Below are positions 1-16,384 of a stretch of DNA of 64,000 nt, in pieces. Both the position numbers and the translations under genes were made by a program. How positions within the stretch are numbered: position 1 is the stretch's first letter; each line of letters begins with the position of its first letter. This DNA comes from an uncultured Oscillospiraceae bacterium (GTDB lineage Bacteria; Bacillota; Clostridia; Oscillospirales; Oscillospiraceae). The notes under the pieces were generated by a model. It did not search any database and was not told the origin of the DNA. It saw only the letters and a list, made by a program, of their open reading frames with translations. The stretch covers positions 1 to 64,000 of the forward strand of contig CATKZW010000007.1 in assembly GCA_949841465.1 (NCBI GenBank). The letters run 5' to 3'.

Positions 1-32
1 TTGGGGCAACTCCCATAAGGAAGTTGCCCCAA
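1..32. terminator. Hairpin at the left edge, downstream of the recombinase
   Basis: Arms TTGGGGCAACT (1-11) and AGTTGCCCCAA (22-32) are a perfect 11-bp inverted repeat with a 10-base loop. It lies 49 bases beyond the stop of the leftward recombinase gene, so it could terminate that transcript or belong to the element end. The window edge hides what follows. Confidence 0.5.
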
Positions 33-80
33 CCGGGGGCCGCAAGTGGCAAGTTACCTATTTGGACGGCGCAGCTTCGG

Positions 81-1765
81 CTACGCTGTCTTTTTATTCC
101 GCTTCTGCATGGCCTGATAGTAGGTCATATATTCCTGTTCCAGCGTTTCTGGCTCTGGGGCTACCCACAAGCCAATGGTATTGTAGTGGATATTCACCCG
201 CTGGTGCCGCTTGCCATCTACCTTATCAGGCTTGGACACTACGATTTTGTCAATGAACTCATGGACGATCTCAGGCGTCAGCTCCGTCAACCGTGTTACC
301 TGTCTGGCCCGCTCAATGAACCGCTGTAAGTCAGCAGTTTTGTCCTTGGTGGCCTCCAGACTGGCCTCCATCTCCGGGATAGCAGTTTTCAACTGCTTCT
401 GCTCGGTTTCCAGCGACACGGACAGGGTGGCGAAACGCCCCTCAGACAGCAGGCCCTTGCTCATGTCCTCATAGCTTTTCTGGATAAGCTGGTCAATCTC
501 CGTTACCCGCTGCTTGACTTTATCCAACTCCCGGCTCTTGGCGGTCAGGGCTTTTTTCTCTTGCAGTCCAAACCGATCCATCTGCTCCTGGGTAAACTGC
601 TTTTCATAGACCTGGACGTACCACAAAAGCCGTTGCAAACCCTCAAGGACAAGCTGTTCCACCACTTTCTTCCGAATATAGTGAGCGGAACACAGGTCTG
701 TATTCTTGCGGTAGCTGGAACAGAAAAATAGGCTTGCTCCCGCTTGTAGTTGTTGGTGGCGCTGTACCCCAGCTTGCTCCCGCAGTCGGCACAGTAGAGA
801 AGCCCGGAGAACATACTCACAGCGCCCGTCCTTGTGGGCCTGAGGCGGTGCTGGCGGAGATTTTGAACCAGGGCAAAGGTTTCTCTATCGATGATGGCGG
901 GGTGAGTGTCAGGGAAGATTTTCCATTCCTCCTGGGGCCTGTCCAACTGCTTCTTCAACTTGAAAGACTGCCGGTAAGTACGGAAGTTCACCGTATCGCC
1001 CACATACTCCTGCCTGTCCAAGATTTCCGCTACCGTGTGAGAACACCACTTATGCGGATATTCGGGGAGTTTGGTTGGGCAATTCACGCCGACACTGCGC
1101 TGGTACTCGCTGGGCGTCAGCACACCGTCAGCCTTCAGCCGCTTGGCAATCTGAGTAGGCCCCAGGCCAATGACACACATCTGAAATATCCGCCGTACCA
1201 CCTCCGCCGCTGGCTCATCCACGATCCACTTGTTCTTGTCCTCCGGGTCTTTCTTGTAGCCAAAAGGGACGTTGGTAGTCAGGGGTATTCCGGCATTGCC
1301 ACGGCTTTGCATGACGCGCCGTACCTTGTCGCTGGTATTTTTGGCGTGCCACTCGTTGAAAAGGTCTTGCATTGGAACAATATCGCTGACCCCGTTGGCG
1401 GTGTCGATGTTGTCCATGATGGCAATGTACCGCACGTTCAGCCGCACAAAATCTTCTTCCAGAAGCTGGCCCACCACAAGGCGGTTCCGGCCCAACCTGG
1501 AGTGGTCTTTCACCACGAGGTTTGCCACAAGTCCTTGTTCGGCCAGCTCCATGATCTCCATAAAAGCCGGACGGGTGAACGAAACGCCTGAGTAGCCGTC
1601 ATCAAAGAAGAATTTTGGGTTGGGCAGGCGGTTGTCGCTGGCGTATTTCTCCAAAATAGCCTTTTGATTCTGGATGCTGCCGGAGATACCATCTTTCTCG
1701 TCGTCACGGGACAATCTGGCGTATAATGCTGTAATTCTCTGATCATTTGGCTACTTTTTCTTCAA
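81..1765 (-). pseudogene. Large serine recombinase (TnpX/TndX type), broken
   Basis: Family role: cuts and rejoins DNA through a catalytic serine to excise and insert Tn4451/Tn5397-type elements. Seen here: the motif ALYARLSRDD with the catalytic serine, the resolvase core, a recombinase domain, a Cys-containing zinc-ribbon segment (LLYCADCGSKLGY) and a long C-terminal coiled coil. Two lesions break it. A good ribosome site (GGAAAGGAG) precedes a TTG start at 1763-1765, but codon 5 is TAG (1751-1753), where CAG would restore KKKQPNDQRITALYARL. Within the A-run at 724-728 one base is missing; adding one A:T pair joins YKREQAYF to the C-terminal half (FCSSYRKNTDLCSAHYIRKKVVEQ). The next possible start, TTG at 1714, would begin right at the catalytic serine and lose the preceding strand. 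The frameshift alone could be a sequence error; with the amber codon it suggests real decay. Confidence 0.88.
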
Positions 1766-1848
1766 AATATGCTCCTTTCCGCAGCCGGGTGTGATATGAA
1801 TTGCAGGGTAACCTTATCATACCACACCCGGCGCAAAACTTCAACACT

Positions 1849-2121
1849 TTACAGTGTGATATTTTGATTGAGAATACGGCTGACCTTTCCTTCTGCGGTT
1901 TCGGCAGCGTCCTTGTTGAAATAAGCATTGACGGTATAGATTGTCCCGTCAATCTCCCGCTCAAAACTGATGGGGTGGGGGTATTGGTGCTTTTTCAGCC
2001 AGTCCAGCCGGTCAGCGTGGGACAGTCCGGCGAGAAAAACTGCCGTTTCATCAACCTTTTTCATCGCTTCATCATATATTTCTGCCTCTCTCTCGGTCAA
2101 TTCAAGTATTATCGTGTCCAC
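1849..2121 (-). CDS. tnpW: TnpW-family transposon-encoded protein
   Basis: A 90-residue protein whose C-terminal half (GTIYTVNAYFNKDAAETAEG) matches the TnpW family carried by Tn4451-like mobilizable elements; its function is not established. The N-terminal half is charged and predicted helical. The GTG start at 2119-2121 overlaps the relaxase stop by 13 bases, so translation is probably coupled. The recombinase starts 84 bases further on. The assignment rests on family resemblance and on its position between relaxase and recombinase. Confidence 0.75.
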   Translation of the reverse strand: MDTIILELTEREAEIYDEAMKKVDETAVFLAGLSHADRLDWLKKHQYPHPISFEREIDGTIYTVNAYFNKDAAETAEGKVSRILNQNITL

Positions 2122-3500
2122 CTGGCAACGCTCCTTCCCCTGTGCTTATCCTGAGTTCGGCCCATGCGCTGGGCCTTCATTTCCTGTTCCAGCTTCAAAT
2201 TCTCTTTTAGCCTATCGCTCTGGGAGAGTACGCCTTCGGCAGTTTTGATATCCTTTCGACAAACGGCCATCGCCACCGTCAGCCGGTCACGCTGAGTCTT
2301 GATTTGGGCGATCTCCGCCCCATCATCACAGCGGCGCAGGCAGTTATAGCACTTCTGTCGGGCGGCACCCAGCTTCTTTATTTCAGCCCGTTTTCCGTTG
2401 ATGAAATCCTCGACATCCTGTCGGGTATCCAACTTTTCCCGGCAGATCAACTGCGCCTGTCGGCTGATAGTGTCCAGACGGCGGCACTCCTCCCGCAGTT
2501 CCGGGGAGAACGGACAGTGGCCGCTCTCTTTCGGCAGGATGCCCAGGCAGTAGCAGTAGTGGAGATACAGACCCCGGAAACCGCCGATCTTCTTCACTGT
2601 GCTAAAAGAGCCTTTTAACCGTAAGCGCCTGGGCTGTGGCCGCTGGATGTGGACAGGCTTGTACCGCTGATAGCCCAGGTCATAGGCGTACCGCTGGCGG
2701 TTTTCCTCAATCCGTTCCCAGAGGGCCGGGAGGTCGTAGTTTTCGCCCAGTCGATAGAGCCGCACCGCCTTTTTACTGCCGATCCGCCGCAGGGTGGCGT
2801 ATTTGTGGGCAGAATTGGCGCCTAACTCATAGCCCTGCTCCCGGAGGGCTTTCCGCAGGTCGTTCCCGTCCACGCTGACCTTGAGGGCGGCATCCAGGGC
2901 CTCCCGCATCAGGTTGTACTTAGTGGGTTCGCCCCTCTTTTCAGCAAAGTAAATGCTCCGGGGCGTTTTGCCTTTCGGATTTGTGATGGTGGAAAGCTGG
3001 TATTCCCTGCATAAATCATCGGATAACTGGCGAAACTGATAGTAGGCCCGTTTGCCGCAGTTAAATTTCTTGCCATCCCACAGACCCACGGAATTGACGA
3101 CAAAATGATTGTGGTAGGTTCCAGTGTTGAAGTGGGTGTCGACCAATACCTGGTACTCGTCGCCCCACATCCGTTTTGCCAACTCCACCCCGAGCCGGTG
3201 GCACAGCTTCGGGGTGACTTCGCCGGGTTTGAAACTTTGGTAGGCGTGATAGGCCACGTTACCGCCCGTCTTGCCAAACCGTTCCTTTACCGCCTGCATT
3301 TCCTGGAAAGCGGTGTCCCGGTTGCAGTTTATGCCGGTGACGAACATGGCCCGTTCCTCACCCTCAACAGTCTTTTCCTCGTTGGCGGCGTAGTGGAGAA
3401 TTTTTTGCAGATTTGAGTAGATAGTCTTATCCGGGTTTTGGGCGTAGTCCACCACGCGGGCCAAACTGTCCTTGACAGGCCAGATTTTAGTTGTCGCCAT
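2109..3500 (-). CDS. Relaxase / mobilization nuclease
   Basis: A 463-residue relaxase of the MobA/VirD2-like group. Family role: nicks the element at its oriT, stays bound to the 5' end and leads the strand into a recipient cell, using a conjugation apparatus supplied by another element. The metal-binding histidine cluster is visible as THFNTGTYHNHF (H123, H130, H132), and Tyr19 in VVDYAQNP is a candidate catalytic tyrosine. The C-terminal third is a charged helical region with several Cys. Its ATG overlaps the end of mobC by 14 bases and its stop overlaps tnpW, forming one mobC-relaxase-tnpW cluster. The frame is intact. No type IV secretion genes occur in the window, so the element would be mobilizable rather than self-transmissible. 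Confidence 0.87.
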   Translation of the reverse strand: MATTKIWPVKDSLARVVDYAQNPDKTIYSNLQKILHYAANEEKTVEGEERAMFVTGINCNRDTAFQEMQAVKERFGKTGGNVAYHAYQSFKPGEVTPKLCHRLGVELAKRMWGDEYQVLVDTHFNTGTYHNHFVVNSVGLWDGKKFNCGKRAYYQFRQLSDDLCREYQLSTITNPKGKTPRSIYFAEKRGEPTKYNLMREALDAALKVSVDGNDLRKALREQGYELGANSAHKYATLRRIGSKKAVRLYRLGENYDLPALWERIEENRQRYAYDLGYQRYKPVHIQRPQPRRLRLKGSFSTVKKIGGFRGLYLHYCYCLGILPKESGHCPFSPELREECRRLDTISRQAQLICREKLDTRQDVEDFINGKRAEIKKLGAARQKCYNCLRRCDDGAEIAQIKTQRDRLTVAMAVCRKDIKTAEGVLSQSDRLKENLKLEQEMKAQRMGRTQDKHRGRSVARWTR

Positions 3501-3792
3501 CGTCTACACCCCCGCTGGTGTAGGCCGTCAGGATCAGTCCCGCCAATTCGTCCAGTTGGGCCGCTGTCCGCTCCATGGGCTGAGTGGTGAGGTTACCCCG
3601 CAGGACATTAACCTGCTGATAGAGGGCCTGGAACCGCTGACGAGGAAACGCCTCCGCAGGCTTCCCCGCGCCTACCCGCCGGAGATACCCGGACAGGGAC
3701 AGGCCGCACCGTCTGGCCTGACGTTCCAGCTTCCGCTTTTCCTGCTCAGTCACCCGCACCTGGATGGCTGTCGTTCTCTTTCTGTCGGTCAT
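3487..3792 (-). CDS. mobC: MobC-like relaxosome accessory protein
   Basis: A 101-residue basic protein starting MTDRKRTTAIQVRVTEQEK, with the ribbon-helix-helix-like N-terminus and the LSLSGYLRR segment typical of MobC proteins, which bind near oriT and help the relaxase reach the nick site. The ATG at 3790-3792 is preceded by GAAAGGAGCG, a good ribosome site, so this start is preferred. The same frame stays open upstream to 4059, which would make a 190-residue protein, but the extra part lacks family resemblance. It overlaps the relaxase gene by 14 bases. Confidence 0.75.
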   Translation of the reverse strand: MTDRKRTTAIQVRVTEQEKRKLERQARRCGLSLSGYLRRVGAGKPAEAFPRQRFQALYQQVNVLRGNLTTQPMERTAAQLDELAGLILTAYTSGGVDDGDN

Positions 3793-4059
3793 TTGACGCT
3801 CCTTTCTGGCCGGGGTGATAGGGGTGGGACCCCTCTCGGCGCAAAGCGCCGCCCGCTTTTGGGGTGCCCCCGGCAACACAAAAGCTATGCTCGCTACCCC
3901 ACAAGACAGGGTTGCGGGCTGTCGGTCAGTGGCTTCTTTTCTGCGAATCACAGCGGGGTCAATATCATATAAGAGTGACGGCAAAAGTTCCGTCATGGTG
4001 GTTTGGCGCGGTTCATGTGACGGCGATTTGCCGTCACGCTGTTTTGTTGTTTTCTCCAT
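3793..4059 (-). other. mobC upstream region, candidate oriT, with an open frame
   Basis: This stretch precedes mobC, where mobilizable elements usually keep oriT. It contains the small hairpin GGCGCAAAGCGCC near 3838-3850 followed by GC-rich clusters and the segment GCTCGCTACCCC near 3890. An open frame starting at ATG 4059 runs through it in phase with mobC (MEKTTKQRDGKSPSHEPRQ...), so it may instead be a small separate gene or an N-terminal extension. I cannot identify a nick site, so oriT is an inference from position. Confidence 0.35.
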
Positions 4060-4169
4060 ATGGTGTTCCTGCCCCTTTTCAGCGGCGTTGTCTCGCTCGC
4101 CCCTCGGTGAAGGTCATGGCGGAGTATCCCATTCAGACGGTCATTCAGTTGTCAGAGGTAAAAAAGAAA

Positions 4170-4244
4170 CCGGTACATAGACGCACCAACCCCAGCGGGA
4201 GCTTTCCTCTCGCTGGGGTTCTTGTGTGGTTGTCTATGTACCGG
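4170..4244. repeat. 75-bp nested palindrome
   Basis: Outer arms CCGGTACATAGAC (4170-4182) and GTCTATGTACCGG (4232-4244) are perfectly complementary. Inside them AACCCCAGCG pairs with CGCTGGGGTT. The result is a long cruciform or hairpin at the junction between the mobilization module and the AT-rich cargo. It may end transcripts from one side, or be a recombination or cargo-junction mark. From 4245 to 4528 no gene is visible; that stretch is AT-rich with no clear signals. Confidence 0.7.
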
Positions 4245-4528
4245 CTGAAAAGCCGTATTCAGTTCACCCATTAAATGGGATTTTAATTTAACATATAGAA
4301 CCGTTGTTTGTCAATACCCCAACTCATAATTTTAACTAATTTTGCTTTAGATATGTTAGAATACAAAAGTCCTATAATTCTTTGCCCGTATAGCTCAACC
4401 AATATAATGAACTGGCATCAAATTACTATTGACATTAATGACGGAAACCCGACATTAATGATAGCCATGATATTCTATGAGAGGTATTACAAAAGATCTG
4501 AATTTAAAATGCAACTTTGCTCTTTTAA

Positions 4529-5847
4529 TCAGCATATGTTAATGATAAATTCTTTGCTTTTTGCTACACAAGCCCCTTTCTTAATTATAAAGCATTGTAC
4601 TGAATGCGAACCGGTATATGCAGTAGATTCACGCTTACCATGAGTACCTTCATCAGATGATTCAAAAGTTCCTCTCATACAATTTGCATTTGCAGCTTCA
4701 ACACCAGTATTCACTATCTGCCACATAACTCGATATGGAGGTTTAACTCCAGTAAAAGCGCGGAAATGGAGAGAATATCCCTTTTCTAAAGGTAAACCAT
4801 TATTTTGGTATTCGATAATATCACCTATTGGTGTAATAACTTTTGCAGAAATGAATGCCGCTCCACCTTTTTGCATTGGCCACATTGGACGTTGTTTATG
4901 AGGTGCAGATAAGCAAACATTTTCGCAGATGAGTGCGTGTGCATTATTACTTGAAACCGTTGAATCTTTTGGAAACTGGTTTCCAAGTATTTCTCTCCAC
5001 GTTTCATTGCCGGTTCCTTTTAAATTCAGTAATTCTGCATGTTCGATCAATTTATAGATGAATTCTTTGAAGTCGTTTGTACTATATCTTGAAAGAAGAT
5101 CGTTCCTCTCAATTTTCTCAGAAGGATCATCAATAATAGGGTTTATCCCGATATCGGCATAGTCCTCTTTATATGCTGATATTATATTCTGAATAGTTGC
5201 AATCAGAAAATCCTCTGTACTTAAAGATGAATCACCTAAATTGTCAGCAATGATTTTTTCCAGAGTTATTCCTTTTGGGTACTTAACATCGCTGGGACAG
5301 TTTACTCGGCGCCACCACTTAAAAATCTTTACCAAAGGTTTATATTCACTGTCATTGTCGGCATTTACTTTTGTAGACCATGATTTATGGCCTTTGGGGT
5401 CAGTAACTGTCCAGTCCCCAAGTTTGGAATTACCAATATAGTATAAAGAATCATCATCTACATCTTTGATTACTGGAACAACATCTATGCTGATACCACC
5501 CATTTCAATGCCAACTGAATGTGATTGAATAGTGGCAGTTTTGTATATGTCCTTCTCCAATAACACATGTTTTAGTTCTGTTAAGACATCTATCGAGTTG
5601 GCATTAGACGTATATGATGTTACTACGATAATATCCACGTCCCGTTTTTTATCTCCCGATACAGGGCGGATCGATGTATGTTTGGCATACGAGCCAGAAA
5701 GGAATGTATCTAAATGTACATTTTGTATTTGTCATGGGTTTGCAAATACGCGCGCAAGTTTGTCTGAACACTACTTATGTACGAAACAGTAGTGTTGCTC
5801 GGTTCGATGTTTGATAAAAAGTTATTAAAATCAACCTGTTTTGACAT
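4529..5847 (-). pseudogene. CD-NTase with AGS-C-like sensor, frameshifted
   Basis: Family role: CD-NTases make cyclic oligonucleotide alarms during phage infection (CBASS). Reading from ATG 5847 (MSKQVDFNNFLSNIE...) gives 45 residues, then a TAG stop. In the next frame the catalytic core continues: DTFLSGSYAKHTSIRP (the GS motif), RDVDIIV (metal-binding DxD) and IDVVPVI (third acidic residue), then helical regions. The C-terminus (WQIVNTGVEAANANCMRGTF ... SVQCFIIKKGACVAKSKEF) resembles the AGS-C sensor domain of bacterial nucleotidyltransferases. One missing base in the short A-run at 5712-5714 explains the break; restoring it gives YKMYILDTFLSGSY. As written, the downstream frame opens only at 5638 and lacks the GS motif, so the enzyme would be dead. 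It begins 3 bases after the DUF6602-like gene. Confidence 0.82.
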
Positions 5848-5850
5848 TTT

Positions 5851-6636
5851 CTACCTCCCAGTCTTTTTGTAGTATTTAGAATTGATCGCTTCTGCGTACT
5901 TTGAAAAGTCAATAGCAGGAACAGTACCTATATCCTGTAGTTTTTTCAGCAGATTAAGTAAGAGAAAAACTAACGATTCGTTCTTTTCGCAAAATTTGAC
6001 TTCAGGAGTGGTCCCATCCTTATAGTCATCTACGAAAGTATTGTTGCCAGCAATATAAGTTCCATCAGACATTGAACTTACAATATCGATCCGTTTCAAA
6101 CGGTCAGTTTGAAGATTTTCGACAACGTGTGACACTATCGGGGAAACCCAATCAGACTTGGTGGTAAGGATTCCGGAAATAATCTCATGAAGCGGTTTTG
6201 GAGGGTACTGTCCCCCTGCGTGTTTTATTGGGGCCGATGTGCGGTACAACGTACGAACACTTTGGGCTTTTTCCCCTGCATATTCCATATGTTCTTTATT
6301 TAGGTTGGGTTTTACCTCAAAAACTGCATACACACTCTCAGCGGGGATTAATAATGAATTATCGTGATGGAATACAAAGTACGAATACTGTGTATCGTAA
6401 ATAACAACATCAATTTGATCGCTCTGCGCTCCAGTATAATCGATAATTATTCCCTTATCAACAGCGTACCTCTTGGGGAGATAGTTTCTAAGCCATTCAA
6501 TCCAATTTGCCTCAACCTCATCGCCCTTTGTGCCAGGATGTACAAATGCCGCACTACCGGTTGAAAGTTTCTCTTTCATTTCTTTCTGCATATGTGTATA
6601 CAGTTCATTCAGACTAATTTCAGGCATTATCATCAC
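5851..6636 (-). CDS. DUF6602-like protein, putative PD-(D/E)xK nuclease
   Basis: A 261-residue protein resembling the DUF6602 group, whose function is unknown. The first 110 residues hold an acidic pattern typical of PD-(D/E)xK enzymes: HPGTKGDEVE (E40), SDQIDVVIYD (D76) and FEVKP (E107, K109) on predicted strands. The remainder is helical with no recognised motif. It sits 5 bases after the endonuclease stop and 3 bases before the CD-NTase, so all are one transcript. By position and fold pattern it could be the effector for the CD-NTase or an accessory of the R-M system; both are inference. Start choices are GTG 6636 or ATG at 6633 or 6627, the last having the best spacing from AAAGAG. Confidence 0.68.
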   Translation of the reverse strand: MMIMPEISLNELYTHMQKEMKEKLSTGSAAFVHPGTKGDEVEANWIEWLRNYLPKRYAVDKGIIIDYTGAQSDQIDVVIYDTQYSYFVFHHDNSLLIPAESVYAVFEVKPNLNKEHMEYAGEKAQSVRTLYRTSAPIKHAGGQYPPKPLHEIISGILTTKSDWVSPIVSHVVENLQTDRLKRIDIVSSMSDGTYIAGNNTFVDDYKDGTTPEVKFCEKNESLVFLLLNLLKKLQDIGTVPAIDFSKYAEAINSKYYKKTGR

Positions 6637-6641
6637 TCTTT

Positions 6642-8330
6642 CTACCTGTGATTTGCTACAACCGTATCAATATGCTGTTTCCATTCTGGTGCTTCCAAAT
6701 TGTCACGCCTTTCTTCACATTTTAAGAGTACATCCCTTATGTATTCAGGCTTTACTTTATTTGTATCAAACATGGAGATAAAACACCGTTGAAATTGTGC
6801 CAGAGTCAACGGAATGATAGTAAGTCTCTGCTTTACATCATCCTTTGTATACCAAACCCCATGTCTAAAAGTCTCAGCTGTATTGGTATCAATCCGAACA
6901 GCAATAAACATTCCATATACAGGCTTGTTGTATTTCAACACAGCATCAGAGACATGGCGGCGGACAGGCTCCCCCTCCATGGCCTCCTGCCTTGAGGATG
7001 TAGACATAGTTACCTCTGTCAAAATTGTAAAATCGGCGTATTCGCAGTACAAATCACCCTTGCCACCACCAGCAGCAGAAACGGGCATGAAGTCAGAATC
7101 CAGCTTAAATCCACGGACTTCATATGGCTCGTTTACCATGTGGTCAATCGCCAAGGCCGCCCGCCAAAGCGTCCACTCTAAATATGCAGGAGTTTCGTCT
7201 TTCGGAACTTCAATTACATTATCTTCATCATAGACTAATTTCCCACCGCCCTTAATCAGCAGGGTCATATAGTCTGCAATCTCTCTCCACTGATTGCGCT
7301 GGTCATTAGCGTATTGAATTTCATCCGTTTGCGACATAATGTTTTCAAGTCGTTGTCTTGCTATGTTAATCTCAGTTGGAGTGGTCAGTGGTAGATCTGA
7401 AATATCAAACAAAATATGTCGTTCTCTCATCTGTTTCGTCAGATCATCGAGCAACGCTTTTGCAACCTCTACATTATCAGTAGGTAATGGTGCCCCGTTG
7501 CAAAGAAGCACATACTGTTCCATAAGCGGTGTCGTACTTGCTGTACTTTTGGCGAGCTTTTCAGCAAGCACATGCTTTGTGGGTACAATAATAAGGCCCC
7601 TGCCTTTGCGCTGGAGAACTCCTGAAATGCGGAGGTATCTCATATTCATGTCACTGTAATCTAAAAAATTATCTGCCTTTTTATCATAGTTTTCACCTCT
7701 TTTGGCAATCTCTTTTTTATCAAATGGACGCTTTGCTGGGGCCAGCGCTCTCCTTGTCCGCAGATCAAGAATGCTGTCTACGACTTCATTAAGGTTATAA
7801 CAGGGATTGGTTGTATGTCCCCACAAGGCGAACTCAATTCTTTTAAATTCAGACGAACCTGTTCGCTTTTCCAGTTCTAACATAATTGCTAAAATCCATC
7901 TTAGTGGGGAAAAGTATCCATTCCCATCTGGCATTGGAAATTGCTCCACACTCATAGAGCGCAGGAAGCATTCCTGCATTGCTGGGTATGTATCAGCCTG
8001 CAAGAAAGATCGCCCAAAAGGCGTAATATCGTCCAAATTACCTAAATCCTCTTGAAGACCATCCTTTTTCTTTACCTGCGGATAAATGAATCCGTTCTTT
8101 GCAAACATCAGTCGCCATTTACGGGCATGACTGCCAGAAGCATCTTTCCCGTCCTCGTTAGAAATAATGCCCTTTTCGTCTAAAAAATCCATAAATCCAA
8201 GTTCATTTTCTCGCCCATGAAGTTTGCCGACAAACGGGGAGTTAGCATAAGCGGCGAATCCTTCTTGAATACGGTTGGGATTGCGCAGGCCTGTATTGCC
8301 AACCAGCCATATTTCGATTCGTTCATCCAT
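6642..8330 (-). CDS. Type IIS restriction endonuclease, AlwI/BstNBI/MlyI-like
   Basis: A 562-residue endonuclease. The C-terminal part aligns by eye with the BstNBI/MlyI/PleI/AlwI family, which bind a short asymmetric site and cut a few bases to one side. Conserved pieces are YLEWTLWR (E385), PVSAAGGGKGD (D426), FTILTEVTMS (E439), MEGEPVRRH (E452) and TIIPLTLAQF near 505; the 13-residue spacing D426-E439-E452 matches the family's active-site acids. The N-terminal 370 residues would be the DNA-recognition part. ATG 8330 follows GGAGG at good spacing. It lies 14 bases after the methyltransferase. The frame is intact, and with an intact methylase this pair should work. The recognition site cannot be read from sequence; GGATC- or GASTC-like sites are typical of relatives. 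Confidence 0.88.
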   Translation of the reverse strand: MDERIEIWLVGNTGLRNPNRIQEGFAAYANSPFVGKLHGRENELGFMDFLDEKGIISNEDGKDASGSHARKWRLMFAKNGFIYPQVKKKDGLQEDLGNLDDITPFGRSFLQADTYPAMQECFLRSMSVEQFPMPDGNGYFSPLRWILAIMLELEKRTGSSEFKRIEFALWGHTTNPCYNLNEVVDSILDLRTRRALAPAKRPFDKKEIAKRGENYDKKADNFLDYSDMNMRYLRISGVLQRKGRGLIIVPTKHVLAEKLAKSTASTTPLMEQYVLLCNGAPLPTDNVEVAKALLDDLTKQMRERHILFDISDLPLTTPTEINIARQRLENIMSQTDEIQYANDQRNQWREIADYMTLLIKGGGKLVYDEDNVIEVPKDETPAYLEWTLWRAALAIDHMVNEPYEVRGFKLDSDFMPVSAAGGGKGDLYCEYADFTILTEVTMSTSSRQEAMEGEPVRRHVSDAVLKYNKPVYGMFIAVRIDTNTAETFRHGVWYTKDDVKQRLTIIPLTLAQFQRCFISMFDTNKVKPEYIRDVLLKCEERRDNLEAPEWKQHIDTVVANHR

Positions 8331-8344
8331 AAGTGTTCCTCCAC

Positions 8345-10249
8345 TTAATAACCTACGAAAAAGTATTCTTGCACAGAATTTCTATGTGTTTTTGCCTTGC
8401 TCTGGTTTCCAAAAGAATACTTATAGTCCACAGGGATAACTTCAACGTGTTTCTTATACCTTGACATGATTGCGACCATTTCATCCTGTGCAGGAAGGCT
8501 GTTAGACGAATAGGAAACGATTAGGATGCTGTTGGCAAATTTCTTAAATAATCGATCAAACGCATCCGCTGCCCCATTTCGTGTGGAAAACGGGGTAGGA
8601 TAGGACTTAAACTTTTTTGTTAGCGTATGCTGTTGAATTTCAACACCCTGCCAATCTCTCGCTAAGCCTTCGACAAAATGGTATCTGCGGACATACTCGT
8701 TATCAGAGAGCGGTGAATAATAGGGGGGATCAATGTAAACAAGATCGGCCTGCTCAACCCGAAGTTCCATCGCATCACCCTGTTTAGCTCTGTTTTGCTT
8801 TCCATTATCAAAAACAGCTTTATTGATCGCTTCAACCGCTTCTAAGAATTGCTGAGCAAGTGTTTTCTGTAAATCCTTTCGGCCATCATTGTATCGTTCA
8901 CCTGTATAAGTAAAAATGCCTCTCGGTCTCTTTTTAGTGCAAGCCCGAATAAGCGCAGTCATGGCAATTGCATGCTTATACTGATCTCGAATTGTAGAAA
9001 TATTGGTGCGCAGTATATCAATCAGATCATTTTCTTCATCTTTATAGTATAGGCCATGAAATGTATCTGCAACAAAATGGTCAGATACTTTATGTTCCAA
9101 TAGTAACTCAGTTGCTTCTTCAATAGGGAGAATGGTCGAATTGTTCTCAATCATGGCCTTTGCAAAAGTAGCGGACATCGCCATATAGTCATTACTAATT
9201 ACGCACTTACCCTGGGCTTTGAACATATATCCGACAATTCCGGAACCAGCAAATAGATCCACTACGGTATCGACCTTAAACTGTGAAGCGACCGACCAAA
9301 TTTCAGGGAGTAGCTTGCTTTTAGATCCCATAAAGCGTGTAGGAGGATACGCTGTTACTTGCTTTGGCAAAGACTGCGGCATAAGTTTAATCAACGTTTT
9401 CTGCTTTGGCGGTATTGTGACAATTACATCTTCGCCTTTCCTGCTACTTCCGCGGCAGGAAATGTAGCGTTTTGTAGATACAACGTCAATCGTAAACGAT
9501 GAGTATAATTCATGCACCAGAGGATGATTGGAATTTGTCAAAATAACATGACACCCACGCTCATACAAACGCATAATGATCTTTGATAACTCAATATGAT
9601 CTTCTTCATAAAACTGCTCTTTTGTATAACGTTTGAAGTCAGAATATTCCGAAATAGGTAAGTATGGGGGGTCAAGGAAAATGAAGTCGCCCTCTTTTGC
9701 ATAATGCTCCAATACTAAAAAGTAGTCACCACACAGGACCTCCGCTTTTTTCAGCGCATCAGAAGCTGCATACAGCGCATCCTGGTCGCAAATCTTGGGA
9801 TTTTTGTATTTCCCATAGGGGACATTAAACTCCCCCTTTTTATTTACACGGTACAAGCCATTAAAGCATGTCCGATTCAAAAAGATGGTTCTTGCTGCCG
9901 CTTCAGCTTGGGGGAGGGCCTCCCACGTTTGGTTGCGGACATTATAAAACATCTCTTTCGTATTTTCATATTGCTTCAGGTATTGTATGACATTATCCGG
10001 GCAGTCAGAGACTTGTCGATACATATTGATAAGTTCCGGATTGCTGTCGGCTATGATTGCATTTTCAGGTTGTAGAGCAAAGAATAACGCCCCACCACCG
10101 AAAAACGGCTCAATATAGCGACCATAAGAGGATGGTACTTTGGGCAGAAGATCATTTAACATTTGGGTTTTTCCGCCAGCCCATTTCAAAATTGGCTTTG
10201 CAGGGACAATAGCTTGCTTTTTTATGGCCTGTTCTGCCAAGACATCCAC
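8345..10249 (-). CDS. Fused two-domain D12 adenine-N6 methyltransferase
   Basis: A 634-residue protein made of two complete Dam/D12-class domains. Domain one has LKWAGGK (residues 21-27), FFGGGALFF (49-57) and DPPY (193-196). Domain two has RFMGSKSKLL (305-314), DLFAGSG (331-337) and DPPY (507-510). A tandem fusion of this kind, as in M.FokI, protects both strands of an asymmetric site, one domain per strand, which fits the type IIS endonuclease encoded next. It is the first gene of the defence operon, so host protection is made before the nuclease. The GTG at 10249 sits almost on its GGGGG ribosome site; TTG three codons later has better spacing. No key residue is missing. Confidence 0.9.
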   Translation of the reverse strand: MDVLAEQAIKKQAIVPAKPILKWAGGKTQMLNDLLPKVPSSYGRYIEPFFGGGALFFALQPENAIIADSNPELINMYRQVSDCPDNVIQYLKQYENTKEMFYNVRNQTWEALPQAEAAARTIFLNRTCFNGLYRVNKKGEFNVPYGKYKNPKICDQDALYAASDALKKAEVLCGDYFLVLEHYAKEGDFIFLDPPYLPISEYSDFKRYTKEQFYEEDHIELSKIIMRLYERGCHVILTNSNHPLVHELYSSFTIDVVSTKRYISCRGSSRKGEDVIVTIPPKQKTLIKLMPQSLPKQVTAYPPTRFMGSKSKLLPEIWSVASQFKVDTVVDLFAGSGIVGYMFKAQGKCVISNDYMAMSATFAKAMIENNSTILPIEEATELLLEHKVSDHFVADTFHGLYYKDEENDLIDILRTNISTIRDQYKHAIAMTALIRACTKKRPRGIFTYTGERYNDGRKDLQKTLAQQFLEAVEAINKAVFDNGKQNRAKQGDAMELRVEQADLVYIDPPYYSPLSDNEYVRRYHFVEGLARDWQGVEIQQHTLTKKFKSYPTPFSTRNGAADAFDRLFKKFANSILIVSYSSNSLPAQDEMVAIMSRYKKHVEVIPVDYKYSFGNQSKAKTHRNSVQEYFFVGY

Positions 10250-10312
10250 CCCCCTATTTTGTAATTAATAAAAAACTATATCAAGCGTGTTGCCGCATAT
10301 ATCGACATCGCC

Positions 10313-10341
10313 AGTATATCACATGAGTATCTTTTCCGCAA
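10313..10341 (-). promoter_or_regulatory. Promoter of the defence operon
   Basis: On the minus strand a -35 TTGCGG (10336-10341) and a -10 TATACT (10313-10318) are separated by 17 bp. Predicted start near 10306, about 57 bases before the methyltransferase start. No second good promoter is seen between the four operon genes. Confidence 0.6.
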
Positions 10342-10375
10342 TATGGCGTTAACCTTTAGAAAAATAAAAAGTGAA

Positions 10376-10410
10376 ACCCATGCAGCGGGCAAACTGCCCG
10401 CCGCATGGGT
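10376..10410 (-). terminator. Terminator after tnpV
   Basis: Arms ACCCATGC and GCATGGGT with an inner stem GCGGGC/GCCCGC form a strong hairpin, followed on the minus strand by a T-rich run. It separates tnpV from the defence operon promoter. Confidence 0.65.
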
Positions 10411-10426
10411 AAACATTATTTATTAT

Positions 10427-10796
10427 CTACGCATATATGATTTCTGCATTTACAATTTCTACTACTCGCTCTCGGATATTGTTCATATGTCTTACCCATT
10501 CCATCTGGCAATTTGCTTTAAGCTGCTCAGTAACTCTTTCTTGCTTTGCCATCTGTGCCGCAAGCTGAAAAAACATATCCTGGGCCTGCTGGTCGATTTT
10601 GACCAGGTAGCTGTTCAACTCACCTGATAAGAGCAAGGGCGGTATAAAAAGCTTGACGATGCTTCTTCAAGTATCGCAAATGCCGTTGGCCCCAGATACC
10701 CACAGGGGTACTTTCCTGCACAGCGAGATTCGGACGAAAATAATCTCCCTCTTGGTGATAAGTCCCACCCGTTTGCTCAAATATAGACTTTTCCAT
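10427..10796 (-). pseudogene. tnpV: TnpV, transposon-encoded protein, frameshifted
   Basis: TnpV is a small protein of unknown role carried by Tn4451-like elements. The start (MEKSIFEQTGGTYHQEGDYF) has a good GGAGGT ribosome site, and the end (QMEWVRHMNNIRERVVEI) is the family signature. The two halves are in different frames: after HRQAFYTAL the written frame gives ALIR and a TGA stop. Removing one G from the GGG run at 10637-10639 restores YTALLLSGELNSYLV and a 122-residue protein. It marks the right part of the mobile element, opposite the recombinase. Confidence 0.82.
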
Positions 10797-10862
10797 TGTA
10801 GTTACCTCCAAATACATTGAATTTCCCTGCAATCCAATCACTTTCGGCTGTCTACAAATAGT

Positions 10863-10898
10863 AAGGGAGAGGTAACTTCCTTACGTTACCTCTCCCTT
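10863..10898. terminator. Hairpin between tnpV and nifJ
   Basis: Arms AAGGGAGAGGTAAC (10863-10876) and GTTACCTCTCCCTT (10885-10898) are perfectly complementary. It lies 38 bases beyond the nifJ stop and probably terminates it. AGGTAACTT (10870-10878) is the inverse of AAGTTACCT at 51-59 near the other end of the element, so the hairpin may overlap the element boundary. Confidence 0.6.
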
Positions 10899-10935
10899 TG
10901 AGGGGGGCTGCTTGATGCAATGCGGTAAGAGCTGA

Positions 10936-14607
<3,672 letters not shown>

Positions 14608-14674
14608 AGGCGTTTTTCCTCCTTTTCATATGAGAACGTGCACCCATACGGTTTCGTTCCGTTTCGCGGTAACC

Positions 14675-14703
14675 AGTCTACCACATTCCCGCCGAATTTG
14701 CAA
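14675..14703 (-). promoter_or_regulatory. nifJ promoter
   Basis: Minus strand -35 TTGCAA (14698-14703) and -10 TAGACT (14675-14680) with a 17-bp spacer, giving a leader of about 60 bases before nifJ. Confidence 0.6.
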
Positions 14704-14860
14704 TTGGAAAAGCTCATTTTTTCGGTAAACTTTCTGGACAATATGGATGTATCCCCGCCTCTTGGGACGTTCCTGCTCCGGGAGGAAAAGCATGGAGGTC
14801 TTGCGGAACGGGATAAATCGTGGTAAAGTATTGAAAAACGACAGGAAAGGGGCGAGTATC

Positions 14861-16384
14861 GTGGTATGCTGCGTGACCTCCCTGGGCCTGCGGGGGGTGG
14901 AGGGCTATCCGGTCACCGCCGAATGCGCCCTGTCCGGGGGGCTGCCCGCCTTCGACGTGGTGGGCCTGCCCGACGCCGCCGTGAGGGAGGCCCGCGAGCG
15001 GGTGCGCTCGGCCATCAAGTCCAGCGGGTTTGACTTCCCCGTCTCCCGCATCACGGTGAACCTGGCCCCCGCCGACAGGCGCAAGGCGGGCACGGTGTAC
15101 GACCTGCCCATTCTGGTGGGCATCCTGGCGGCGGGCGGGCAGCTGTCCCTGAAAAAGGAGCGGGACTCCGTCTTTTTGGGGGAGCTGTCCCTGGACGGGC
15201 GGCTGAGGCCGGTGTCCGGGGTGCTGCCCATGGCGCTGGCGGCCCGGCGTGCGGGGGTGACCCGCGTCTTCGTCCCCGCCGACAACGCCCCTGAGGCCAC
15301 TTTGGCCGACGGTTTGGAGGTCATCCCCGTGGGCACGGTGAGGGAACTGGCAGACCATCTCTCCGGACAGGCCCCCATCCCCCCCGCCCCCCTGTGGCAG
15401 GCGGAGCAGGCCCCCATCCAGGGCCCGGACTTCAGCGAGGTGAAGGGGCAGGAGCAGGCCAGGCGGGCGCTGGAGATCGCCGCCGCGGGCGGGCACCACG
15501 TGCTCATGTCGGGCAGCCCCGGCTCGGGCAAGTCCATGATGGCCAAGCGCCTGCCCGGCATACTCCCGGACATGACCAGGGCAGAGGCCCTGGCCTGTAC
15601 GGAGATCTATTCCGTCATGGGCCTGACCACAAGGGAGCACCCCATGGTGCGCCGCCGCCCTTTCCGCTCCCCCCACCACACCATCTCCGCCGCCGGGATG
15701 ACCGGGGGCGGGACCAACCCCCGGCCTGGGGAGATCTCCCTGTCCCACAACGGGGTGCTGTTCCTGGACGAGCTGCCCGAGTTCCGCGCCGACGTGCTGG
15801 AGGTGCTCCGCCAGCCCCTGGAGGACGGACAGACCCAGATTTCCCGGGCGTCCGGCTCGGTGACCTACCCCAGCCGGTTCATGCTGGTGTGCGCCATGAA
15901 CCCCTGCAAGTGCGGCTGGTACGGCCACCCCTCCGGCCGGTGCACCTGCACGGAGCAGGCGGTGCGGCGATACCTGTCCCGGCTGTCGGGGCCCATGCTG
16001 GACCGCATCGACATCTGTGTGGACGTGCCGTCGCTGGACTACGACGAGCTGTCCGGGGCCGCGCCCCCGGCGGAGCGCTCGGAGGTGATCCGGGCGCGGG
16101 TGAACGCGGCGCGGGCCGTCCAGACCGCCCGGTACGGCCCCGACGGTCCCCCCTGCAACGCCCAGATGGGCCCCAGGGAGCTGCGCGGCCACTGTCAATT
16201 GGACCGGCCCTGCCAGCAGCTCATCCGCGACGCCTATGACCGGCTGGGCCTCACCGCCCGGGGCTACGACCGCATCCTGCGGGTGGCCCGGACCATCGCC
16301 GACCTGGACGGGGCGGAGGACATCGCCGTCCATCATCTCGCCGAAGCGCTGCAATACCGGCTTCCGGAGTACCTCAGGGGATGA
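14861..16384 (+). CDS. yifB: YifB/ComM-family Mg-chelatase-like AAA+ ATPase
   Basis: A 507-residue ATPase of the YifB/ComM family. ComM acts in natural transformation as a helicase helping branch migration; the role in Clostridia is untested. Seen: an N-terminal Lon-protease-like fold (SLGLRGVEGYPVTAE ... LPAFDVVGLPD), Walker A GSPGSGKS (218-225), Walker B VLFLDELPEF, a Cys cluster CAMNPCKCGWYGHP ... CTCT, and a C-terminal Mg-chelatase domain (RGYDRILRVARTIADL). The frame is open from 14747, but the family starts just before the SLGL motif, so GTG 14861 after AGGAAAGGGG is chosen. It is divergent from nifJ. Confidence 0.9.
   Translation: MVCCVTSLGLRGVEGYPVTAECALSGGLPAFDVVGLPDAAVREARERVRSAIKSSGFDFPVSRITVNLAPADRRKAGTVYDLPILVGILAAGGQLSLKKERDSVFLGELSLDGRLRPVSGVLPMALAARRAGVTRVFVPADNAPEATLADGLEVIPVGTVRELADHLSGQAPIPPAPLWQAEQAPIQGPDFSEVKGQEQARRALEIAAAGGHHVLMSGSPGSGKSMMAKRLPGILPDMTRAEALACTEIYSVMGLTTREHPMVRRRPFRSPHHTISAAGMTGGGTNPRPGEISLSHNGVLFLDELPEFRADVLEVLRQPLEDGQTQISRASGSVTYPSRFMLVCAMNPCKCGWYGHPSGRCTCTEQAVRRYLSRLSGPMLDRIDICVDVPSLDYDELSGAAPPAERSEVIRARVNAARAVQTARYGPDGPPCNAQMGPRELRGHCQLDRPCQQLIRDAYDRLGLTARGYDRILRVARTIADLDGAEDIAVHHLAEALQYRLPEYLRG

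Follow-up and report, generated by a model that had tools for sequence, protein, structure and literature searches.

Does a restriction-modification (R-M) system that adjoins a cyclic oligonucleotide-based antiphage signalling system (CBASS) on the same strand amount to one coupled immune machine, or are the two separate layers carried by one mobile element? The question is raised by a row of four leftward genes at 4529-10249 of the 64,000-nucleotide stretch analysed here (the window), from an uncultured Oscillospiraceae bacterium. The original prediction saw in this row a type IIS R-M pair and a cGAS/DncV-like nucleotidyltransferase (CD-NTase) pair under one promoter, with restriction or its failure as a possible trigger of the CD-NTase, whose product would activate a DUF6602-like protein. 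Here, I argue, with a probability of about two in three, that the row is interchangeable defence cargo on a mobilisable element that has a serine recombinase, a relaxase, a NikA-like protein and TnpV, with an R-M system in the lead and a swappable second-line module behind it, CBASS in the present copy.

Results

The four defence genes occupy a slot between the mobilisation flank and the TnpV flank of the element (Table 1). Their order (fused D12 methyltransferase, AlwI-family endonuclease, DUF6602 protein, CD-NTase) and their spacings of 14 (8331-8344), 5 (6637-6641) and 3 (5848-5850) bases are as originally described, and Pfam assigns the products to MethyltransfD12 (in two stretches), RE_AlwI, DUF6602 (2.5e-34) and SMODS with AGS_C. 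A related element lies at the same place, after the same chromosomal gene, in genome G017 (locus L077), where a TnpV gene (Pfam TnpV 7.7e-43) forms the right flank; the window aligns with that locus over 1-2105 at 83%, 4065-4317 at 86% and 10448-10977 at 79% identity, the cargo in between being unmatched. Similarity of genomes G032 and G026 (L078, L079) to the window stops at 10935, the end of the chromosomal gene, which I take to encode a pyruvate:ferredoxin oxidoreductase-like protein.

Matches to the left flank were found at 12 further places in nine other genomes of the genus, and the seven with a TnpV flank on the same contig were read as sister copies. Four of these seven hold, between the same element flanks, R-M systems of three kinds followed by different co-directional genes. 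In L077 an Eco57I-type methylase and a BsuBI/PstI endonuclease are followed by a TIR protein (PADLOC PDC-S66, 1.9e-74), whose place in L096, behind the same kind of R-M system, is taken by two co-directional genes of unknown function (L096:1886-3579), a candidate for an as yet unknown defence pair. L095 has a C5 methylase, REase_II and Vsr, followed by genes resembling Hypoth_Ymh/Aga_HEPN (Aga_HEPN 5e-11) and PDC-M36A (8e-20), and L100 a type IIG enzyme with its specificity subunit, followed by a DUF4238 gene (L100:1630-2559). The second-module genes of both L077 and L095 thus have PADLOC matches. The spacing between the R-M system (or Vsr) and the gene that follows is 24, 21, 28 and 25 bases in these four copies, and 5 in the window. 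L077 and L096 share 93.3% identity along 3226 bp covering TnpV and the R-M genes, beyond which they carry different genes. None of the window proteins P0001-P0005 was matched by tblastn in L095-L100.

A similar layout surrounds the AlwI cassette elsewhere. A single scan with the endonuclease across the GTDB species genomes found 22 loci, read by tblastn with the window proteins; by blastn of window positions 1-15000, similarity is confined to 6664-10240 in all 22. The methyltransferase is directly 5' of the endonuclease in 20 of them (L024 starts inside the endonuclease, and L027 keeps a remnant). What stands behind the endonuclease varies (gaps in bases): SIR2-HerA in L024 (15), an IrrE peptidase with a PIN-like gene in L010 (22; the PIN match comes from the L009 copy), an Abi_C protein in L006 (27; Pfam only), AIPR/AbiU in L020 (39), PHP-SMC in L011 (41), Tmn in L015 (45), an ATPase gene without PADLOC match in L007 and L017 (82), split into short frames in L008, IrrE-PIN in L009 (241), and in L014 a methyltransferase (291) with SIR2 further on. 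The pair L010 and L011 is 93.8% identical over 5937 bp, up to 90 bp or less from the endonuclease stop, then diverges, and is again 94.8% identical over 135 bp; in both, TnpV stands in front of the AlwI cassette too. It is on the four sister copies and these relatives of the AlwI cassette that the layout of R-M plus module is here called repeated.

Three observations on these loci may be added. The ATPase just mentioned is a 701-amino-acid P-loop protein (L017:12401-14506; also L007 and L008), directly behind the AlwI R-M pair and with weak Pfam matches. In seven loci, whose cargos are of six different kinds, the unit of AlwI R-M and cargo is closed by a stretch of about 135 bp (weak in L020), in which another integrative element probably ends. 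At L027:10004-13345 an endonuclease remnant is followed by Gabija GajA/GajB and then by the same element end; the R-M part being reduced and Gabija kept, it can be argued that such modules work alone.

No fixed union of AlwI R-M with CBASS emerged from these comparisons. NucC (the identity of the DUF6602 protein, see below) or a CD-NTase was found at 0/22 genome loci, flanks being short at some of them (e.g. L007, 1.3 kb past the endonuclease match), an outcome that the original prediction had itself named as speaking against it. Among seven plasmid loci read, of 60 records with more distant endonucleases, none has an annotated CBASS gene, as far as their incomplete gene tables show; in three Acinetobacter plasmids the cassette is a unit of helix-turn-helix (HTH) regulator, methyltransferase and endonuclease. 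Conversely, CD-NTase and NucC do occur together without AlwI R-M. NucC is found in 10/391 genomes of the class, the own one included. Five such loci were read: in L040 and L041 NucC is adjoined by a CD-NTase, L042 is broken, L043 resembles a type III CRISPR locus and L044 holds a weak NucC homologue beside other R-M-like genes (the last two by eye); none of the five carries the window R-M proteins. Likewise, the five NucC plasmids read, of 144 records, all have a nucleotidyltransferase or cyclase annotated beside or near NucC, and none has AlwI R-M. Within about 10 kb of the CD-NTase match, NucC was not matched in the four class genomes with an AGS_C part, out of six others matching the CD-NTase piece. 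As a separate observation, the CD-NTase/NucC pair of L040 adjoins Qat-like genes (L040:7597-13927; TatD-like, QueC-like and KAP ATPase, by eye).

Table 1. Features of the window and the stretch that closes related AlwI cassettes (positions in the window unless a locus is given)
Feature	Position	Strand	Evidence
Large serine recombinase	545..1714	-	Pfam Recombinase 2.3e-21, Resolvase 6.8e-14
MobA/VirD2-like relaxase	2109..3500	-	Pfam Relaxase 1.6e-38
NikA-like mobilisation protein	3487..4059	-	Pfam NikA-like 7.5e-17
Conserved left flank of slot	4063..4317	.	72-91% identity to pieces of seven sister copies
Cargo slot, differs between copies	4318..10447	-	Alignments end at 4317 (L077, L095, L097; 4334 in L096) and resume at 10448 (L077, L096)
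CD-NTase remainder, other frame: SMODS core with GS and DxD motifs, AGS_C	4529..5710	-	Pfam SMODS 8.1e-24, AGS_C 3.9e-27; B. cereus CdnD 9sa4 2.6e-42
CD-NTase gene, first piece, 45 aa, then TAG stop	5713..5847	-	Pfam SMODS profile 1-42 of 164, 5.9e-06; PADLOC Cyclase 2.6e-09
NucC endonuclease (DUF6602), CBASS effector, about 259 aa, open frame	5851..6636	-	PADLOC, PDB 6p7o, residue check
AlwI-family type IIS restriction endonuclease, 562 aa	6642..8330	-	Pfam RE_AlwI 8.4e-102; PADLOC REase_II 6.4e-150; N.BspD6I in PDB 7e-18
Fused D12-class N6-adenine DNA methyltransferase, 634 aa	8345..10249	-	Pfam MethyltransfD12 7.4e-91, two stretches; PADLOC MTase_II full length, 1145 bits
Conserved right flank, TnpV gene remnant	10448..10909	-	79-80% identity to TnpV-coding stretches of L077, L096; no open frame of 80 aa, same strand
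Chromosomal gene adjoining insertion	10936..14607	-	3' part up to end at about 10935 matched in 33/41 other same-genus genomes
Stretch of about 135 bp closing AlwI R-M and cargo	L008:13841-13976; L010:8534-8668; L011:14637-14771; L017:14537-14667; L020:13725-13855; L024:3941-4077; L027:13215-13345

The leading pair is an R-M system of AlwI type IIS by Pfam, PADLOC and relatives alike, with a RE_AlwI endonuclease and an adenine methyltransferase placed directly 5' of it, as in the majority of relatives. AlwI-type enzymes recognise GGATC and cleave at an offset. The window departs from its relatives in that no small HTH_26 regulator precedes the pair, as one does in 11/22 (at least L022 and L024 being cut by contig ends), and its endonuclease stands at the lower end of the family range of 562-670 amino acids. 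Several relatives have about 110 extra C-terminal endonuclease residues that the window copy lacks (3' ends, L006-L026). The endonuclease has matches in 3/99 kin genomes, namely its own and two weak ones, and it has no relatives among the viral contigs searched. A second, distant AlwI-like endonuclease frame occurs in the same genome (L005, G000:C103:453-1490; 22% identity, 1.2e-9).

As to the DUF6602 protein, the family and the PD-(D/E)xK pattern that had been noted were both confirmed, and its identity can be sharpened to NucC, the CBASS nuclease activated by cyclic triadenylate (cA3). It matches PADLOC NucC at 4e-57 and the CBASS model 'Effector Endonuclease (NucC)' at 1.2e-92, and its best solved match is E. 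coli NucC (PDB 6p7o, 2.8e-51), with 98 of 236 aligned residues identical. All eight residues checked are shared with the E. coli protein (D73, E104, K106, R53, Y81, H136, Y141 and T226); I take these, by their E. coli numbering, to belong to the PD-(D/E)xK active site and the cA3 pocket, D73 being the residue altered in 6p7p. A novel effector was thereby rejected; a literature search on DUF6602 returned no paper, and a single-sequence structure prediction (mean pLDDT 35.2, pTM 0.23) was discarded. A predicted cyclic-oligonucleotide-activated effector thus adjoins the CD-NTase, as in CBASS. NucC was matched at 1e-25 in 2/398 genomes of the phylum, the own one and G011, which are also the only two among 42 genomes of the genus; viral contigs gave no relatives and phage records two weak matches. 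The G011 copy is itself broken by stops and frame changes (L042, about 7427-8170).

The CD-NTase has a SMODS domain and the predicted AGS-C-like sensor, but not as a single open gene. ATG 5847 opens 45 codons ended by TAG 5712-5710, and the GS and DxD motifs and AGS_C are in another frame; the catalytic motifs are thus present, but downstream of the break. The first start codon of the remainder, GTG 5638, lies 3' of the GS motif and of the first catalytic aspartate, so a restarted product should not be a working enzyme. At 1e-10 the CD-NTase piece is matched in 7/391 genomes of the class, its own included, and it has no relatives in viral contigs.

Concerning transcription, the single visible promoter claimed earlier is no evidence for an operon, as promoter-like sites number 15 against 14.5 (sd 4.0) in shuffled sequence. 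The short gaps nevertheless make a shared transcript plausible, and they hold no predicted terminator; within the genes themselves there are weak same-strand sites that resemble terminators, e.g. at 9244-9230, 8023-8011 and 7606-7593. Rfam at gathering scores had no match in 4000-11000 of the window. The G+C content is 37-43% in the four genes, as expected for acquired cargo, against 54-60% in the mobility genes and about 62% in the remaining window.

Comparison with known systems

The window resembles the NucC-bearing CBASS of E. coli MS115-1 (PDB 6p7o/6p7p) in the NucC family and in its place beside a CD-NTase, and differs from it in that the cyclase bears AGS_C, is broken and, like NucC, stands behind an R-M pair. 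HORMA and TRIP13, the partners of type III CBASS, were not seen among the neighbours (R-M, NikA-like, relaxase and recombinase genes), although no search was aimed at HORMA; only about 470 bp separate the cyclase from the NikA-like gene. Two-gene loci (L040, L041, L052, L055, L058) likewise have NucC directly beside a nucleotidyltransferase gene, yet with the cyclase 5' of NucC and shorter (e.g. 254 amino acids in L040), whereas NucC comes first in the window; the cyclases of L040 and L041 match only residues 1-108 of the window CD-NTase piece.

The closest solved relative of the cyclase piece is B. cereus CdnD (PDB 9sa4/9sa5); when the two are aligned, D24 and D26 of the piece fall on its D73 and D75. 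CdnD belongs to a type II CBASS, makes cA3 and activates a CRISPR-associated NucC (PMC13424991). By analogy, the product of the window cyclase may be cA3. The same paper places CdnD with Cap4 and Cap2/Cap3, while the window cyclase stands with NucC and has the added AGS_C domain.

PrrC offers a precedent for genetic linkage of a suicide effector with an R-M locus; it is reported to be silenced by the linked type Ic R-M protein and freed by a phage anti-restriction peptide (PMC3874168). That linkage is described there as invariable and functional, whereas the sister elements of the window vary both the type of R-M and the second module, and conserved linkage of effector and R-M was found at 0/22 genome loci and 0/7 plasmid loci.

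Hotspots of mobile elements that carry defence cargo are a known class, with variable defence genes between conserved element flanks. The present element shares this design and differs in that an R-M system leads and other genes follow in all five R-M-bearing copies read.

Discussion

How might such a cargo work? Its two layers would share a strand, with the R-M leader first and the second module a few bases behind. The leader is a complete AlwI-like type IIS system, whose two-headed methyltransferase would mark the host sites while the endonuclease cuts unmarked DNA, and it would act first and alone. The second layer would be a two-gene CBASS: on a phage cue the CD-NTase would become active and make cA3, upon which NucC would act as a DNase and kill the infected cell. 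Both layers are probably transcribed together but would work independently, with shared transcription rather than signalling as the likely link.

Several points weigh against this picture of an ordered cargo. The seven sister copies, out of the 12 left-flank places, were chosen for having both flanks on one contig. Three of the seven are without R-M-plus-module cargo: nothing was seen in L098, and L097 and L099 hold other genes (by eye), those of L099 (L099:1489-3545, with weakly similar flanks) including a BlaI/M56 regulator-like pair, also by eye. The block of L100 is inverted relative to the flanks, and neither the second genes of L096 nor the DUF4238 gene of L100 had a PADLOC match. Around the AlwI cassette, defence-like genes also stand in front, in L018 (Gabija-like by eye) and in P. 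megaterium (annotated AIPR), and PADLOC matches (E<=1e-3) number 8/16 behind against 2/10 in front, a difference that is not significant (Fisher p = 0.22). For the gene behind, L016, L022, L023, L025 and L026 were left out and a second frame was used for L008; L012, L013, L018, L019 and L021 had no match there, the gene being on the other strand in L012, L018 and L021.

Such counts, and the loci without a match behind, are what plain accumulation would lead one to expect, that is, R-M and CBASS captured at different times and placed head to tail by chance, with no selection for order or co-expression; defence genes are known to cluster in mobile elements. Yet genes on the same strand stand within 5-28 bases of the R-M system in all five R-M-bearing copies (the window, L077, L095, L096 and L100), and the near-identical pairs L077/L096 and L010/L011 retain their R-M genes while exchanging what follows, which makes accumulation by chance rather unlikely. 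Far less probable still is the coupled system first proposed, with restriction, or its failure, as the trigger of the CD-NTase. The contiguity of the four genes, and PrrC as a precedent for R-M-coupled suicide (PMC3874168), speak for it; set against these are the 22 genome and seven plasmid AlwI loci without a NucC or CD-NTase partner, the existence of NucC with CD-NTase where R-M is absent, and the sister elements that join other types of R-M to other genes. Direct coupling was accordingly rejected. What stands of the original prediction is the contiguous unit and, as a recurrent layout, R-M followed by a module; that the CD-NTase product activates the DUF6602 protein is probable too, by analogy with NucC, with no support for R-M as the trigger. 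Since sister elements carry other R-M systems with other genes, the pairing resembles a package of two exchangeable layers rather than one new machine.

A further issue is whether the second layer is alive in this copy. The CBASS layer is probably dead in this assembly, judging from the reading frames, unless the break is a sequence error. That it is an error of sequencing or assembly, with a live CBASS, may be entertained as a minority view: the genome is a draft of 136 contigs, the two pieces jointly span nearly the whole PADLOC cyclase model (positions 1-44 and 48-329) and the remaining three genes are open. On the other side, the break lies in no long homopolymer, no close copy is at hand for comparison (among the 42 genomes of the genus the cyclase is found in its own only), and the TnpV flank of this copy likewise lacks a long open frame, which fits decay. 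Programmed frameshifting, to which the near contiguity of the two pieces might point, is extremely improbable and was rejected, a canonical X_XXY_YYZ heptamer not being seen (by eye) in the zero frame just 5' of the stop; I know of no case in CD-NTases.

Conclusions

The exchangeable cargo proposed here for one element may, tentatively, be extended to gut Clostridia, whose elements would carry a two-layer immune slot in which several R-M systems lead and a swappable, co-transcribed second-line module keeps the cell armed if restriction fails. The modules in such a slot might be CBASS-NucC, TIR, HEPN-like, SIR2-HerA, Gabija, AIPR or still unknown genes. The proposed hybrid immune system thereby gives way to a pattern that is easier to test, with a restriction system in the lead of a fixed slot and an exchanged follower. 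If the order is selected, the position behind R-M predicts second-line defence genes, several of them without any database match, and whether layered defences are organised or merely accumulated can be put to a direct test; and, were the two-layer slot real, the genes of unknown function found there, namely the L096 pair, the DUF4238 gene of L100 and the 701-amino-acid ATPase of L017, would be new defence genes.

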